Of a stretch of 64,000 bases of DNA, positions 30,435 through 36,465 are shown in pieces. The position numbers and the translations under genes are program-made. The stretch covers positions 44,336 through 108,335 of the forward strand of contig NZ_WNDO01000019.1 of the NCBI RefSeq assembly GCF_009912395.1, written 5' to 3'. The DNA comes from Luteibacter sp. Lineage in GTDB: Bacteria > Pseudomonadota > Gammaproteobacteria > Xanthomonadales > Rhodanobacteraceae. Every line of letters starts with the position of its first letter. Position 1 is the stretch's first letter. Below the pieces are notes generated by a model. That model did no database searches. It was not told the origin of the DNA and saw nothing but the letters and a program-made list of their open reading frames with translations.

Positions 30435-30541
30435 GGACTTCACTCGTGAGGGGTTGGGAAAGCCCACGATTTTAGCCGGGTCGCCTGCGGACAGTCTTGC
30501 CGCGCCGCAACCGACGAGGGAGAATGCCCGCCACTATAGCC

Positions 30542-30654
30542 CAAAAGGGAGTAGTTCCGCGAGGCATACCCGCCTCGTGCGCGCCGATCGTCAGTACGGA
30601 CGCCTCATGCGTCCCGGTCGTCGCGGCGGCTTCGCGCCGGGAACGAGACTTTTG
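30542..30654 (+). ncRNA. yybP-ykoY-type Mn2+ riboswitch upstream of terC
   Basis: The leader of the TerC gene contains the conserved blocks of the yybP-ykoY aptamer: GGGAGTAG shortly after the first stem strand CAAAAG (30542-30547), the second block CCGATCGTCAGTACG (about 30584-30598), and the closing strand CTTTTG (30649-30654). Two GC hairpins lie between the blocks. A further strong hairpin (about 30661-30682, CGACGGG/CCCGTCG) follows and could be the expression platform. TerC-family genes are the classic targets of this riboswitch, which binds Mn2+. Recognition is from the remembered consensus; a covariance-model search was not possible. Confidence 0.8.
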
Positions 30655-30724
30655 CGGTGACGACGGGCGCGCGTACCCGTCGCCGCCGCATTTGTCTTCA
30701 CCGAGCGCGCGAAGGACCCGCCCC

Positions 30725-31420
30725 ATGGATTTCCTCACCCCCGAATTCTTCTCCGGCCTGGCAGCCATCGTGCTGCTGGACCTCGTGCTGGCCGGTGACA
30801 ACGCCATCGTGATCGCCTTGGCGGCCCGCAACCTGCCCAAGCACCTACAGACCAAGGCGGTGTTCTGGGGCACCTTCGGCGCCATCGCCGTACGCATCGC
30901 CCTCACCTTCGCGGTGATCTGGCTGCTCAAGCTCCCGGGCCTCATGTTGGTGGGCGGCCTGCTGCTCCTGCCCATCGCCTGGAAGCTCCTGACCCAGGAC
31001 GACCACGACCCGGACGTGGTGGCGGCCACGGGCTTCTGGCCCGCCATTCGCACCATCGTGGTCGCCGACGCCCTGATGGGCCTGGACAACGTCCTGGCCA
31101 TCGCCGGCGCGGCCAAGGGCCACATGGGCCTGGTCGTGCTGGGCCTGGCGATCAGCGTGCCGCTGGTGGTGTGGGGCTCCACCTTGATCCTGAAGCTGAT
31201 AAGCCGCTTCCCGGTCATCGTCTACATCGGCGCGGGCGCCATCGCCTGGACCGCCGCCCGGATGATCGCCCACGACCACCTGACCGCTCCGTGGTTCGAT
31301 GCACGCCCGTGGGCCCCGTGGGCGCTCGACGCGCTGCTGGTGGTGGCCGTGTGTGGCGGAGGCTGGCTGGCGGCCCGTAGGAGCGCGCTTGCGCGCGATG
31401 GGGGTAGTGGGAAGGCTTGA
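30725..31420 (+). CDS. TerC-family membrane protein (YjbE/YkoY group), probable manganese exporter
   Basis: A 231-residue protein with about seven membrane helices. The TerC signatures are two acidic membrane motifs, LDLVLAGDNAIVIALA near the N-terminus and DALMGLDNVLAIAGAAKG in the middle. TerC proteins of this group export Mn2+ (shown for Alx and for Bacillus YkoY/MeeF), and the manganese riboswitch in front supports that role. The last 14 residues (218-231) are encoded by a palindromic repeat, whose usual translation RSALARDG is visible; the native C-terminus has been replaced or extended. It converges with the broken outer-membrane gene. Confidence 0.88.
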   Translation: MDFLTPEFFSGLAAIVLLDLVLAGDNAIVIALAARNLPKHLQTKAVFWGTFGAIAVRIALTFAVIWLLKLPGLMLVGGLLLLPIAWKLLTQDDHDPDVVAATGFWPAIRTIVVADALMGLDNVLAIAGAAKGHMGLVVLGLAISVPLVVWGSTLILKLISRFPVIVYIGAGAIAWTAARMIAHDHLTAPWFDARPWAPWALDALLVVAVCGGGWLAARRSALARDGGSGKA

Positions 31421-31480: not shown

Positions 31481-31510
31481 AAAAAAAAGGCCGCCCGAAG
31501 GCGGCCTCCT
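31481..31510 (-). terminator. Intrinsic terminator downstream of the outer-membrane (pseudo)gene
   Basis: On the minus strand GAGGCCGCC, a short TTCG loop, GGCGGCC and eight T residues, 22 bases after the stop codon at 31532. It would also end read-through from the Fap-like operon. Confidence 0.9.
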
Positions 31511-31531: not shown

Positions 31532-32392
31532 TCAGAAGCGGAAGCGGACGTAAGCGGCTGGACCGTTGAGCTTCATGTCCAGGTCGAGGTCGTAGCGACG
31601 CTTGTTCTGGTTGAGGCGGATCTTCGTATAGGCGTACTCGGCGCCGAAGCCGACGTTCTGCCACGGGAACCACTCCAGGCCGATCGCGGCATCGTAGATG
31701 TGGCCGTTGAGGCTGCCGCCGTTCTTCTTCACGCCCGACGCATTGACGTACATGCGCCACTGGTCGTTGAACGAGTGACGCCAGCCAAGCTGCAGGTTCG
31801 GCGCCCAGGCGCTCTCGTTGGCGCTGGCACCGGCAGAGAAGTTGTCGCCGTTGACAGTGGCCGAACCGTAGATGCTGGCGTGCACCTTGTAGTACGCCGC
31901 ACCCAGGCCGACGCCGAACACATCGTTGCCGGTACCGAACCACCACTTGTATGCAGCGCTGCCGAAGGTGAACTTGAGATCACCCTTCGCGCGGGCCGTG
32001 GCTTCGATCGGCGTACCGAGGAAGTTGATGCCGTCGGACAAGGTCTTCGAATGATCGCGATCGACTTCGTAGTAGTCGAACGAGAAACCCTGATGCTCGC
32101 CGATCAGGAAGTCCAGCCGCACGCGAGGCACGGCCTAGTGCTTCTTGAAGTCGAGGTCGCGCTCGAGATTCAGGTTGCCGCGCGAGTTCAGGATATCGGT
32201 GTGCGCACCGATGTTCGTGTCGTTGTTGCTGTAGTAACCGCCCACCCAGAGGCTGATGTTGTCCAGCGCGGGGGACTGGGATTTCTTGACGTAACCGCTG
32301 TCCTGCGCATGCGCGACGGCACCGAAGACAGCGAACGAAGCGAGTGCGAGGCCCGCGGTGGCCTTGCCGAAGCGATGATGGCGAATGCGCAT
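31532..32392 (-). pseudogene. Outer-membrane beta-barrel protein interrupted by an in-frame amber codon
   Basis: Translation from ATG 32392 (AGGGAG upstream) gives a signal peptide (cut after AVAHA), then SLWVGGYYSNNDTNIG and further barrel-like sequence, until a TAG at 32137-32135. The same frame continues at once with AVPRVRLDFLIGEHQGFSF and about 195 more residues of alternating, aromatic-rich strands, ending in YVRFRF with a C-terminal Phe. The two parts are clearly one barrel of about 285 residues broken by a single nonsense codon. No frameshift is present. Either it is a recent pseudogene, a sequencing error, or an amber-suppressed gene. The family is not recognised. It follows the FapF-like gene by 155 bases and has an intact terminator. 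Confidence 0.82.
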
Positions 32393-32547
32393 GTAAGGAA
32401 ACTCCCTGCAAGTCTTTTCTATGTGTGTGTTCGAACCCCCGTTTGAAATCTTAACGAACACTTATGTGTGCGGGATGTGCACGGGAACTTGCGAGTGTTC
32501 CAGACACGCATGGTGAATGCATTGTGAAAACATTGCGCACGCGTTAA

Positions 32548-33891
32548 CTACAACGTGATGGGAAGCCGCACGGTGATCGTCGAATCCGGCGTATCGCGAG
32601 TCACGCCAACACCCAGCGTCACGTTCAGCGTTTCCTTGTCGTTGAAGCGATACGAACCGCCAATCAGCAGCGAACCCAGCGTTACACGCGCCGAACCGGG
32701 CACGGATTTTCCGTTTTGCGTGGTGCGTCCCACAAAGCTCTGGTCGTAGCCGACGCTGATCGACGCCTTCTCGTTCAGCGAAAGGCCCATGCCCAGGCTG
32801 ACATCCGCGATGTCGCCGGCTTTCACGTCGCCGAGAAACTGCGTTCCCTCGCCCAGCACATGCCTGCTGACATTGCTGCGCTCGAAATTATGCAGGTAGC
32901 TGACATTGCCGAAAAACACGACAGGATCTGACGGATAGAGCCACGTCACGCCGGCCTGCGCCGAGTAGAAACCCGTGCCGGTGGGGCTTTGCAGCGGCAG
33001 ACCTGTGCCGGTGAAGTTCTCCAGGCAACGGGTGATGCAATCGGTGGTCACGTCGAAAGGATCGCGTCCGGTACGCGACTTGGCGCGTATCCATCCCACG
33101 TAGTAAGGCTTGTCGGCACCGCCGTCGTTCAGCTGGTAACGCAAGGTCGCCTCGATATCGCCGATACCCTTGCCACTCGTCGTGTAGAGGCTGTCCTGTG
33201 CGGTACCGGTGAAGATCTCGCGGCTGATCGTGTCGGTATGCGTATCCACGTAAGGTACGCGTACTTCCAGTTCCATGCGGTTGGTCAGGCCATAGCGGAA
33301 CGCCACTGCGGCGGTTTGCGTGGTGGTCTTCACCTGCCTCACGTCGATGAGGCCGATGAGGATCGCGGGAATCACCGTATAGCCCACTAAGGCCACGCGA
33401 TCGCTCGACGAGTAGCCGTACTGGTACGACGGCTCGACGATGAGTTTGCCGCGCGGCGTGAGCACGCCGGGCTGGTCGAAGATGGGTGCAACCTCCGGCG
33501 GTCGTTCATCCTCCGCAGGACGGCGCCCCACGGGGCTGGCCGCCACCGTATGCGATGACGAGGGTGGCGGCGGATCGGCCGCGGTCGCCACGGCCGCCGA
33601 TCCGCCACGTGCCTCGTCCAGTGAGTTCAATCCCACCGCCTTGCGCAGGTCGGCGTACTGCGCCTCCTGCGCGGCGAGATCGCGCTTCATCTGCTCCAGT
33701 TCGGCCAGTTGCTCGGCCATGCGGCTTCGCATGGCGTCGAGCTTGCGCCCCTGCGCTTCGATCCTGTCGCGCAACGCAGGATCGGTCCCGGCATCCTGCG
33801 CGAAACAGGTACCTATCCACATGGGCAACAACGCGAGCGACCATGCGCCCGCGCGTACGCCCGCCTGCATCACCCTGCCATTGCGATACAT
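32548..33891 (-). CDS. FapF-like outer-membrane transporter (coiled coil plus beta-barrel)
   Basis: A 447-residue protein. A signal peptide (residues 1-31) is followed by a coiled coil (about 38-86, ALRDRIEAQGRKLDAMRSRM onwards), a Pro/Ala/Ser-rich linker (about 90-138) and a beta-barrel from about 145 to the end. The barrel opening LIVEPSYQYGYSSSDR, then GYTVIPAILIGLIDV and RYGLTNRMELEVRVPY, matches the FapF group as I remember it. In Pseudomonas FapF, the trimeric coiled coil gates a barrel that secretes amyloid subunits. The start follows GGGGGAA and lies three bases after the preceding stop, so it is the last gene of the operon. The position after C39 peptidase and E-like genes reproduces the fapD-fapE-fapF order. 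Confidence 0.8.
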   Translation of the reverse strand: MYRNGRVMQAGVRAGAWSLALLPMWIGTCFAQDAGTDPALRDRIEAQGRKLDAMRSRMAEQLAELEQMKRDLAAQEAQYADLRKAVGLNSLDEARGGSAAVATAADPPPPSSSHTVAASPVGRRPAEDERPPEVAPIFDQPGVLTPRGKLIVEPSYQYGYSSSDRVALVGYTVIPAILIGLIDVRQVKTTTQTAAVAFRYGLTNRMELEVRVPYVDTHTDTISREIFTGTAQDSLYTTSGKGIGDIEATLRYQLNDGGADKPYYVGWIRAKSRTGRDPFDVTTDCITRCLENFTGTGLPLQSPTGTGFYSAQAGVTWLYPSDPVVFFGNVSYLHNFERSNVSRHVLGEGTQFLGDVKAGDIADVSLGMGLSLNEKASISVGYDQSFVGRTTQNGKSVPGSARVTLGSLLIGGSYRFNDKETLNVTLGVGVTRDTPDSTITVRLPITL

Positions 33892-33894
33892 GCG

Positions 33895-34374
33895 TTAGTT
33901 CCCCCGAAACTGGATCGTCGCGTCCTGTACCGCCTCGGCGAGCCGCAGGTTCTGCAGCATGTGCGCGGCGTTCACCGACGCGTCGATCGATGTGGTGGCC
34001 GAGATGGCCTGGTTGTTCAGCGAGTTCTGTATAACGAGTGCGCCGCTGGACGCTCCCATGTCGGTGGACACGCCGCCGATGCCGTTGGTGACGACCGTAG
34101 CGCGCAGGGCATTCGAGAGCGCCGTCGCCTGGTCGGCGGTGACGTGGGACAAGTCGGGGATGGTGACGCTGTTCTGCACCACCGCCTCGCCGTTGACCAA
34201 CACCGTGCGCTTCAACGACAACGACGCGAGCAAGCCATCGCCGATATCGAAGCCACCACGCACCTCGTCGAGACGTGCGTCGGGCAACGCCGCCTGCGTC
34301 GTGAAGTCAGCCGCACGCACCGGCGCGCACACCGCCGCCAGGGCCATGCCAACGGCCAGGATTCGCCTTTTCAT
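33895..34374 (-). CDS. FapE-like exported protein with a Gly-Gly leader motif
   Basis: A 159-residue protein. Signal peptide residues 1-21 (VRAA), then LPDARLDEVRGGFDIG: the Gly-Gly at residues 40-41 preceded by Leu and Val at spaced positions looks like a double-glycine cleavage site. After it, SLSLKRTVLVNGEAVVQNSV and a later GALVIQNSLNNQAISATTSI give an Asn/Gln/Ser/Thr-rich, beta-prone sequence. There are no cysteines in the mature part. The ATG at 34374 overlaps the stop of the C39 peptidase gene (ATGA). It is assigned E-like by position in the operon; homology to FapE itself is not established. Confidence 0.7.
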   Translation of the reverse strand: MKRRILAVGMALAAVCAPVRAADFTTQAALPDARLDEVRGGFDIGDGLLASLSLKRTVLVNGEAVVQNSVTIPDLSHVTADQATALSNALRATVVTNGIGGVSTDMGASSGALVIQNSLNNQAISATTSIDASVNAAHMLQNLRLAEAVQDATIQFRGN

Positions 34375-35051
34375 ATATCCCCCGGCCCGCGCTTGGGCAT
34401 CACGATGGGCGCGAGACCGTTGCGTTCGATGCCTTCGCCCAGCGGCGCGGCGGGCGCCACGGCCCAGTCGCGTGGACTGTTGAAGATCGCGCGGTCGCGC
34501 TGGTTGTGGATCACGAAGACGATGCGGTTCTTCCACAGATCGTCGAAGCGACGCTGCGACATCGAGCGCGTGCCGCGCGCGGGGTCGCCGATGAGCACGC
34601 GGCCATTCCGGTAGCCCTTCACCACCACGAAGTGGTGATAACCGCGCTCGTCGATCAGCACGATTGCGGGAATGCCCTCCTCGTCCAGCTTCGCCAGCGG
34701 CACCGCGAAACCGTCCGCCTCGAACCCACGCGAAGCCAGGAAACGCTTGATATCGAGCAGCGAGAACCCTTCACGACCGATCTTCGTGCGATCGCCCGAG
34801 GCATACATCACATCGAACGCCGCCTGTTCGTCGATGGGATAGGCGTACTGGTAGGTGAGCAAGGTCGCCACGGCCGCGGAGCCACAGCTGAAGTCGTATT
34901 TCTGCCGGATGGTGTTGCGGAATCGCGCTTCCTTCAGGCTCGTCAGGTGCATCGGATACGACGTGCCCGGCGAGGTCTGCACCTCGGCCCTGCCGGCGTG
35001 GACGACGGGTGTCGCCAGCAGGAAGAGGCTGAGGATGCAGGCGGTTTTCAC
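34371..35051 (-). CDS. Periplasmic C39-family cysteine peptidase (FapD-like)
   Basis: A 226-residue protein without ABC-transporter domains. It has a signal peptide (residues 1-19, HAG), and the C39 catalytic set is visible: Gln50 and Cys56 in QKYDFSCGSAA, His140 in GYHHFVVVKG and Asp156 in GDPARGT. C39 enzymes cut leader peptides after Gly-Gly; the stand-alone exported form is typical of FapD in functional-amyloid operons. The start is GTG 35051, overlapping the previous gene's stop (GTGA) with AGGA upstream. The following gene overlaps its end by four bases, so the three middle genes are tightly coupled. Its likely substrates are the two neighbouring small proteins with GG motifs. Confidence 0.88.
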   Translation of the reverse strand: MKTACILSLFLLATPVVHAGRAEVQTSPGTSYPMHLTSLKEARFRNTIRQKYDFSCGSAAVATLLTYQYAYPIDEQAAFDVMYASGDRTKIGREGFSLLDIKRFLASRGFEADGFAVPLAKLDEEGIPAIVLIDERGYHHFVVVKGYRNGRVLIGDPARGTRSMSQRRFDDLWKNRIVFVIHNQRDRAIFNSPRDWAVAPAAPLGEGIERNGLAPIVMPKRGPGDI

Positions 35052-35374
35052 GGTGTCATCCTGACGTTGACGATGGTCGCGTTCTGGATGAGCACGTTGT
35101 TGCCCGAGTTCTGGATCACCGTGGGCAGGCCCGCCGAACCACTGAACGCCGAGCCGGAGACAAGATTGCCGCCGCTGTAGGTACCCTTGGCCTGGTTGTC
35201 CGAGACGGTGCCGTTGAGCCGTTGGCGGGTGAGGTTGTTCGTGATGTCGCTACCGCCGGTCATCGTGGACAGCTGCGCGTTCGGCACCGGCGTGTCGAAC
35301 GTGGTCTGCGCCAGGGCGCCCGTGGTCAGGACCAGCGCCAGGACACCGACACATGCTTCGCGAAACATGGGCAT
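35048..35374 (-). CDS. Small exported Asn/Gly/Ser-rich protein with a Gly-Gly leader motif
   Basis: A 108-residue protein starting at ATG 35374, with GGAGG eight bases upstream. Signal peptide residues 1-22 (ALA-QTT). Then VPNAQLSTMTGGSDIT places Gly-Gly at residues 40-41, exactly as in the E-like protein. The remaining 67 residues contain LNGTVSDNQ, Ser/Gly-rich turns, and VIQNSGNNVLIQNATIVNV, a repeat-like, amyloid-prone pattern. No cysteine occurs after the signal. I do not recognise a named family; by position and composition it may be a minor or nucleating subunit, processed by the C39 peptidase encoded immediately downstream. Confidence 0.75.
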   Translation of the reverse strand: MPMFREACVGVLALVLTTGALAQTTFDTPVPNAQLSTMTGGSDITNNLTRQRLNGTVSDNQAKGTYSGGNLVSGSAFSGSAGLPTVIQNSGNNVLIQNATIVNVRMTP

Positions 35375-35395
35375 GGCATACCTCCGTTGACGAAC

Positions 35396-35422
35396 GTCAC
35401 GGGGCGCGATACGCCCCGTGAC
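35396..35422 (-). promoter_or_regulatory. Intercistronic stem-loop between the Gly-rich subunit gene and the export genes
   Basis: A perfect 11-base stem (GTCACGGGGCG with its complement) and a five-base loop in the 62-base gap between the first and second operon genes. No T-run follows on the minus strand, so it may slow polymerase or protect the upstream mRNA end, giving more subunit than machinery. The function is inferred. Confidence 0.6.
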
Positions 35423-35436
35423 ATCGTCATCTAGGC

Positions 35437-36369
35437 TCAGTGGCCGGCGTTTACGTTGGCCTGGACATTCACGCTCTGCTGGATGAGCGAGGCCGCGCCG
35501 TTGTTCAAGGCGAGATTCACGATGCCTGCCGCGCCGGTACCCGCGCTGCCGGCGTTGTTGGTCATCGCGAACGAACCCGCGTTCACGTCATTGGAGCCGC
35601 CTGCGGCACCCGCGCCACCGGCGCCGCCTGAACCGGCACCGCCGGTGCCATCGCCGCCTGCCGCGCCCGCGCCACCCGCGCCCGTGCTGGCCGTGGCCGT
35701 GCCACCCGCGCCACCCGTCGCGGCACCGCCCGTGGCGGTCGCCGTCGCATCGCCCGAGGTACCGGCACCGCCCGAACTGGTGCTGGCACCACCCGTGCTG
35801 GTCGAGGCGCCGCCGGTCGACGCGCCACTGCCCGCACCACGCGAGCGCGCGTTGCCACCGTCACCGGAGCCGTCGCCACCATTGCCGGAGGCCCGACCGC
35901 CCGCCGACGCGGTAAGCGAGCTGGCGTCGCCGCTGCTGCTGGAGCCATCGCCGCCGACAGCGCCATGGGCGCCAGCTCGACCGGTGGCGCCGCCGTTTCC
36001 GCCATCGCCACCGCTACCGGAGGCCCCACGACCTGCGCCGCCCACGCCGCCGTTTCCGCCATTGGCGTTACCGGTGTTGCTGGCCCAGTTGCCCATCGGG
36101 TTGACGGTGATGTTGGACACCGTGCCGTTGAGCGTGCTGTTCGCCACCGCCGTGGTGGTGTTGAACGAATTGCTGGTGGTGTTGGTGGTGGTCGCGGTGC
36201 TCGTATGGGTCGAGCTGTCCGTGGCCTGGGAGTTGTCCGTGTACTGGACGGCAATCGACTTGCGCTGGGCAGACGGACCGGCCGCACCGTTCTGGGTGTC
36301 GTCGGCCAGGGCCGGCAGGGCGAATCCGATGGCGAGGCAGATCGCCGAGGCAATGAGAGTCTTACGCAT
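35437..36369 (-). CDS. Gly/Ala/Ser/Thr-rich secreted protein, candidate major fibre subunit
   Basis: A 310-residue protein starting at ATG 36369 after AGGAG. Signal peptide residues 1-22 (ALADD). Residues 25-100 are Thr/Ser/Asn-rich (TATTTNTTSNSFNTTT, then STLNGTVSNITVN). Residues about 100-265 are a Gly-rich low-complexity tract of GGxGG and SSGG units, like PE_PGRS or polyglycine-II proteins. The C-terminus (AMTNNAGSAGTGAAG, NLALNNGAASLIQQSVNVQA) returns to Asn/Gln/Ala-rich sequence resembling amyloid repeats. There are no cysteines. It is the first gene of the Fap-like operon, the position of the fibre subunits. It lacks an N-terminal GG leader motif. No known family was recognised, and the fibre role is inferred. 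Confidence 0.72.
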   Translation of the reverse strand: MRKTLIASAICLAIGFALPALADDTQNGAAGPSAQRKSIAVQYTDNSQATDSSTHTSTATTTNTTSNSFNTTTAVANSTLNGTVSNITVNPMGNWASNTGNANGGNGGVGGAGRGASGSGGDGGNGGATGRAGAHGAVGGDGSSSSGDASSLTASAGGRASGNGGDGSGDGGNARSRGAGSGASTGGASTSTGGASTSSGGAGTSGDATATATGGAATGGAGGTATASTGAGGAGAAGGDGTGGAGSGGAGGAGAAGGSNDVNAGSFAMTNNAGSAGTGAAGIVNLALNNGAASLIQQSVNVQANVNAGH

Positions 36370-36449
36370 GGGAGAGTCTCCTGTGAGCGTGGTGAACCCG
36401 TGTGTCGAATGACTGGCCGCCCCTGCCGCTGCACCGGTCGAGCGTGCGG

Positions 36450-36465
36450 AGCAAGTTGCGTGCCT
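36450..36465 (-). promoter_or_regulatory. Sigma-54 (RpoN)-type promoter of the Fap-like operon
   Basis: The minus strand reads AGGCACGCAACTTGCT, matching the -24/-12 consensus TGGCACGNNNNTTGCW at every fixed position but the first, with ten bases between the GG and GC dinucleotides. Transcription would begin near 36439, about 70 bases before the subunit start codon. A single match by eye can be chance. Confidence 0.55.

Follow-up and report, generated by a model that had tools for sequence, protein, structure and literature searches.

A conserved operon for Fap-type export in Luteibacter, separate in lineage from canonical Fap, with double-glycine leaders in two of its proteins

The operon and its protein families

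We analysed a 64,000-nucleotide stretch of the Luteibacter sp. contig NZ_WNDO01000019.1 (hereafter the window), in which five minus-strand genes, here called A to E, form an operon that resembles the functional-amyloid (Fap) export operon of Pseudomonas. In our reading of the open reading frames of the window, the core operon A-B-C-D-E covers 32548-36369 (Table 1). An initial annotation made from the sequence had placed a Fap-like operon of five minus-strand genes at 31532..36465. The genes and their order are confirmed by the open reading frames, whereas the low end of that interval takes in a separate outer-membrane barrel gene (31532-32392). Also upheld is its statement that the last three genes correspond in type and order to FapD, FapE and FapF: C and E are FapD- and FapF-like, and D is FapE-like over its leader region. 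The GTG start codon of C overlaps the stop of B by 4 nucleotides, C and D overlap by another 4, D and E are separated by 3 nucleotides, and A and B by 62. Signal peptides of A to E were assigned by eye and with a crude scripted score, no predictor being used.

Table 1. Features of the operon and its downstream flank, in window coordinates.
Feature	Position	Strand	Description and basis
Gene A	35437..36369	-	Gly/Ala-rich, signal peptide, 310 residues; likely main secreted substrate; in 79/80 loci
Gene B	35048..35374	-	Small protein, signal peptide, 108 residues, Gly-Gly leader; profile homology to D
Gene C	34371..35051	-	C39 peptidase, FapD-like, 226 residues, signal peptide; Pfam, NCBIfam and PDB matches
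Gene D	33895..34374	-	FapE-like, signal peptide, 159 residues, Gly-Gly leader; profile match to canonical FapE over leader region
Gene E	32548..33891	-	FapF-like, 447 residues; coiled coil (by eye) followed by an outer-membrane barrel; NCBIfam and PDB matches
Leader motif of B, L35-S-T-M-T-G-G41 (-7 to -1)	35252..35272	-	Alignment counts
Leader motif of D, L35-D-E-V-R-G-G41	34252..34272	-	Alignment counts
Similar motif of E at coil/barrel junction, L91-D-E-A-R-G-G97	33601..33621	-	Alignment counts
Catalytic Cys56 in C, alongside Gln50, His140 and Asp156	34884..34886	-	Alignment to 6mpz
Outer-membrane barrel gene with in-frame TAG, outside the system	31532..32392	-	Homologue in 22/80 loci
Terminator-like hairpin 3' of the outer-membrane protein gene	31485..31510	-	Terminator scan

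Protein C is a C39 peptidase (Pfam C39, E = 9.1e-20) and the sole Pfam C39 match in its genome (5.39 Mb in 56 contigs). Its match to the NCBIfam model C39_FapD (2.8e-39, 134.7 bits) is practically tied with that to FilB of the Acinetobacter Fil system (1.3e-38, 133.0 bits). Among PDB entries it matches the double-glycine protease 6mpz best (2.1e-9). We identify 6mpz as LahT from its molecule name and from Gln21 and Cys27 in the alignment with C. The residues Gln50, Cys56 and His140 of C are kept in 76 of 79 alignment rows, the remaining three being gapped, and Asp156 is likewise kept in 76. Given its signal peptide, judged by eye, C is likely periplasmic.

Protein E matches the NCBIfam FapF model (9.5e-43, 146.5 bits) and, over residues 128-444, the crystallised FapF (PDB 5o67, 1.8e-27); the match to FilC is much lower (3.8e-12, 46.2 bits). 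The initial annotation had called the peptidase FapD-like and the barrel FapF-like, and had named a match of the barrel to a different transporter family as part of the result that would speak against it. The NCBIfam and PDB matches agree with both names, and E matches FapF far better than FilC. PHROGs returned a single weak match on E (0.0074) and nothing for A to D. The nearest named relatives of both D and E belong to Luteibacter. In several public records (among the best 120 of 4436), the FapF-like barrel of Luteibacter, Dyella, Frateuria, Fulvimonas and Rhodanobacter is named 'acetate kinase' (P0142, P0143, P0155, P0162, P0183, P0198, P0238 and others). This name is evidently a spread misannotation, and the system may have escaped notice because of it.

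For A, B and D, neither Pfam nor NCBIfam gives a family above chance, and NCBIfam gives none up to E 0.5. A consists to 25% of Gly (78 Gly and 60 Ala among its 310 residues); its single Cys lies in the signal peptide, and there is no CxC. D had been described as an exported protein resembling FapE, and this holds over the leader region, where profile-profile comparison with canonical FapE gives a probability of 93.8 (E 1.8e-7) across 38 columns, but not for the NCBIfam FapE model, which D leaves unmatched. B is in turn related to D (probability 93.9, E 1.6e-7, 78 columns). Profile searches of D and B against the PDB yielded no match up to E 1. Two further relationships were considered. A kinship of B with FapB or FapC was rejected at a profile probability of about 6. 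The idea that A is a paralogue of B carrying a Gly-rich insert comes from C-terminal ends that look alike by eye, and at a profile probability of 13 it is a hint only.

Leader motifs and the canonical FapE site

Leaders cut by C39 peptidases have, by the textbook, hydrophobic residues at positions -12, -7 and -4 and Gly-Gly at -2 and -1. Passages of a structural study present a C39 co-crystal in which the leader lies in this same register, with -12/-7/-4 and Gly-Gly (PMC6363468). Counting back from the proposed cut, we find double-glycine leaders of this kind, with hydrophobic -12, -7 and -4 and Gly-Gly, in B and D. In B, Leu-7 and Gly-2 are present in 79 of 79 rows and Gly-1 in 78; position -12 is Val, Ile or Leu in 60 of the 79, and position -4 is Met in 29, Leu in 23, Tyr in 14 and Ser in 8. 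In D, Leu-7, Gly-Gly and a Val, Leu or Ile at -12 each occur in 78 of 79 rows and Arg-3 in 77; an 80th row, the cut one of locus L052, has no letters here. Between signal peptide and motif, neither length nor sequence is constant. Textbook Gly-Gly leaders in B and D are a new observation. The initial annotation mentioned neither these leaders nor the similar site in E, nor the second FapF that 12 of 197 genomes carry (see below).

The site in E lies at the end of the coiled coil and has Leu-7 in 76 of 80 rows, Arg-3 in 77, and Gly-Gly in 35 or Ala-Gly in 33. In A, the motif appears in just one of 79 rows (L110), within a frame that also matches B. That frame (L110:3034-4485) matches A and B as if they were fused, and may be a frame artefact. 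How rare the pattern is was gauged in the window only, across 320 open frames of at least 100 residues (77,741 residues): a loose version of the leader pattern has eight matches, three of which are B, D and E, and a version ending in RGG has two, both within the operon.

The register of the motif of D is also found in canonical FapE. Our Pseudomonas set comprises the best 80 of 207 loci, all close to the query. FapE is readable in 77 of them, and all 77 have Leu, Ile, Met or Val at -12, Met or Leu at -7, Leu or Met at -4 and R-G-R at -3 to -1. Among the relatives of FapE (best 120 of 433), all 120 fit the motif search pattern, with Leu or Met at -7, Met or Leu at -4 and RGR, and 119 have Ile, Leu or Val at -12. 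Because canonical FapE thus keeps the same hydrophobic register across the motif of D, it seems likely that the Gly-Gly variant shows plainly a site that canonical FapE keeps with Arg at -1.

Trypsin, too, cleaves after Arg, so that the published mass spectra of FapE are undecisive about a cut at this site. Passages of two Pseudomonas studies report that those spectra contain no peptides from the first ~70 residues of FapE, and state that Fap proteins lack canonical C39 sequences (PMC5557850, PMC6173800). The same passages describe the FapD Cys as required for the secretion of FapC and the target of FapD as unsettled (PMC5557850, PMC6173800). Cleavage of FapF by FapD within the FapF linker is raised as a possibility in one of them (PMC5557850), and the linker is described as disordered in part of another (PMC6173795).

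Distribution and relation to canonical Fap

We surveyed 197 genomes of the family, an even sample of a larger group, and found FapF-like genes in 108. A close copy of E (60-100% identity) is present in 80 genomes, in one of which (G178) it is in two pieces, and a distant FapF copy (23-30% identity) in 40; both types occur together in 12 of the 197. For synteny we compared 80 close loci from 80 genomes, that is, the window and 79 others. A-B-C-D-E lie on one strand and in the same order in 79 of these, and the remaining locus (L052), cut by a contig end, contains just D and E. With the order kept in 79 of 80 loci, the arrangement is not due to chance, and the synteny check among relatives that the initial annotation had suggested comes out in favour of joint conservation of the neighbouring genes.

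Across the order, 95 of 398 genomes have a match to a profile of D, and in two the match is weak (about 1e-3). Twenty-five of the 95 belong to a second family of the order, and all five genes are present in the four loci of that family that were read (L163, L180-L182). At the level of the class, a profile of E matches 36 of 369 genomes, including its own and three others of the same order, and the NCBIfam FapE model has matches in 15 of the 369, none above its cut-off. In a tree of 50 FapF sequences, our group, joined by 14 loci of other families in the class, splits from canonical fap and Pseudomonas with support of 100/100. Some of the related operons in other families differ in composition. 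Three have an extra small coiled-coil gene between D and FapF (L166:6070-6573, L167:3106-3549, L169:2973-3434), FapF is without a coil in six (L164, L168, L172, L173, L174, L177), and in several an Asp/Asn/Ser/Thr-rich low-complexity protein stands in the place of A. We considered whether the separate coil genes mark coil and barrel as separable at the E motif, and rejected this, as FapF in those three loci has its own coil.

The distant FapF copies were sampled at 19 loci (L053-L071) from the 40 genomes, eight of which were read in detail; for the 12 genomes with both FapF types, the distant locus was taken from four (G007, G042, G066, G136). C- and E-like genes are present in all 19. The NCBIfam models FapA to FapF all match, all under their curated cut-offs, in one distant locus examined fully and a second examined partly. 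Locus L060 (G107:C28) has two canonical-type fap operons ~8 kb apart on one contig.

The genome of the window, by comparison, has one FapF; the second row returned covers 23 residues on the other strand of that gene. FapA, FapB and FapC gave no match in this genome, while three relatives with canonical fap matched as positive controls, and canonical FapE gave no match in a search that had no positive control. The absence of FapA noted in the initial annotation is therefore borne out; parts of Dueholm 2013 describe the loss of FapA as common in Fap systems (PMC3792158). The claim that the upstream proteins are unlike FapB and FapC fares equally well: B has a profile probability of about 6, and A aligns with FapC in its signal peptide only and has no CxC. 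FapB or FapC with GN-x-G-N repeats was found neither with NCBIfam nor with profiles of A and B, nor in the genome search with its three positive controls.

Like fapABCDEF of Pseudomonas, the operon thus has a C39 peptidase, a FapE-like protein and a FapF barrel in D-E-F order, proposed substrates upstream, and the FapE leader region in the same register. Unlike it, the operon has no FapA, its A and B match neither FapB nor FapC, its barrel is of a separate FapF lineage, its FapE-like protein has Gly-Gly rather than Gly-Arg at -2 and -1, and it has a second leader-bearing protein, B. With FapA, FapB and FapC missing, it stands outside Fap in the strict sense; it is a genuine operon for Fap-type export, conserved and belonging to a lineage of its own.

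Dueholm 2013 regards FapD and FapF as likely members of two larger protein families (PMC3792158). Passages of Rouse 2018 list fapD-fapF pairs in five more phyla, where peptidase and barrel are co-located as they are here; these passages describe the pairs as co-located genes and do not discuss leaders or substrates (PMC6173800). The C39 proteases of the AMS/PCAT type (LahT; 6mpz) share with C the catalytic residues, and their substrates have hydrophobic -4, -7 and -12 and Gly-Gly at the cut. In contrast to them, C is encoded on its own, without an ABC transporter, and has a signal peptide, as do its proposed substrates. Our literature search, which covered few subscription papers, found nothing on this lineage or on Gly-Gly leaders in Fap systems. 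At the level of titles and abstracts, there was nothing on Fap-like amyloid or Luteibacter amyloid, and no title among those listed concerned the target of FapD. Of the literature that joins Fap with the names of this family or order, only PMC3792158, judged in the same way, concerns Fap.

Proposed mechanism, alternatives and flanking genes

We propose that A, B and D are exported by the operon to the surface of the cell and there likely build a fibre or matrix, and that C likely cuts B and D behind their Gly-Gly leaders; we put the probability of this reading at roughly 70%. Both the fibre formed by A, B and D and the cleavage of B and D after Gly-Gly are what we infer from sequence comparison. 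Judging from the signal peptides seen by eye, A to E would first cross the inner membrane by Sec. By its homology to FapF, E would form a trimer in the outer membrane, the coil lying in the periplasm. C would then hold the leaders of B and D through the hydrophobic residues at -12, -7 and -4 and cut after Gly-Gly, as the leader motif and the C39 co-crystal suggest. FapC secretion in Pseudomonas depends on the Cys of FapD, and by analogy this cut would commit first B and D, then A, to export via E. A, which has no leader of this kind, would be the bulk product, and its Gly-rich middle may set the surface properties. It is tempting to speculate further that a cut by C at the coil/barrel junction of E could open or shut the channel.

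A bolder generalisation would have every FapD read the FapE leader at -12/-7/-4, with one protease here cutting two cargo proteins and the transporter, so as to mature cargo and gate the channel; we hold this tentatively and consider it rather doubtful. With textbook leaders in two proposed cargo proteins, and the same register in canonical FapE, the question of the FapD target becomes testable. Among relatives of Luteibacter, the system would also amount to a second class of Fap-type export.

Several observations weigh against the proposed export and cleavage. C and E score below the NCBIfam cut-offs of C39_FapD (330 bits) and FapF (700 bits), and FilB is nearly equal on C; the canonical-type FapF of a relative is also under the FapF cut-off, at 365.5 bits. 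The kinship of D with FapE spans those 38 columns only, without a match to the NCBIfam FapE model, and that between A and B is weak. AlphaFold models of D and A are of low confidence, with a mean predicted local distance difference test (pLDDT) score of 48.3 (43 sequences) and 40.4 (41 sequences), so that they allow no claim on the fold or fibre form of either. Arg rather than Gly at -1 of canonical FapE would not be expected to suit the narrow C39 pocket. In E, the motif lacks both Gly-Gly and Ala-Gly in 12 of 80 rows (three of these being gaps), and in loci of the second family its place is taken by RARG in three and RGRGG in one. FapF of Pseudomonas was caught in 42 of the 80 loci, and L-x4-[GA]G occurs in the linker of one of the 42. 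Finally, five of the eight loose-pattern matches in the window fall outside the operon.

It is possible, although we think it unlikely, that FapF-dependent export serves a non-amyloid coat or adhesin, with A as a Gly-rich surface protein and B and D as anchors or caps. The high Gly content of A, the lack of a FapC match beyond its signal peptide, and its replacement by a low-complexity protein in several related operons would fit such a coat. However, the Asn/Gln-rich stretches of B and D (VIQNxGNNVLIQN) resemble Fap and curli repeats by eye, and the nearest studied system makes amyloid.

Distinctly less probable is that L-x-x-x-x-GG serves only to dock C or E, with no cut by C taking place there. 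In favour of this, some C39-like domains are catalytically inactive and act as chaperones, according to passages of PMC5557850, and canonical FapE keeps the hydrophobic register with Arg at -1. Yet Gly-Gly is kept in 78 of 79 rows of both B and D, and C retains its catalytic residues.

We give little credence to a drifted but ordinary fap operon, in which A would be FapC, B would be FapB and the product the usual Fap amyloid. The canonical order of the FapD-, FapE- and FapF-like proteins could be taken this way, and FapC linkers vary widely, as part of PMC3792158 describes. Set against this, B has no profile match to FapB or FapC, A matches FapC in the signal peptide only, canonical-type FapF coexists in the 12 genomes that hold both types, and the FapF lineage is separate in the tree. 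Membership in the Fil putative pilus system of Acinetobacter is highly improbable: Fil likewise pairs a C39 peptidase with a FapF-like barrel (FilB, FilC), and both proteins find matches here, but on E the Fil barrel is matched far more weakly than FapF, and A, B and D match nothing in NCBIfam.

Downstream of the operon, a TAG at 32137-32135 breaks the outer-membrane barrel gene in frame; in 17 of 17 other loci inspected, this gene is uninterrupted. We place it outside the core system because a homologue is found in just 22 of the 80 loci, window included. The scan that gave the hairpin beyond it found four terminator-like sites, against 3.7 expected from shuffles, and no promoter-like site. 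Next to these lies a plus-strand gene at 30497-31420, presumably for a TerC-like membrane protein. It has a homologue in 73 of the 80 loci, window included, and the genomic site is thus largely conserved.

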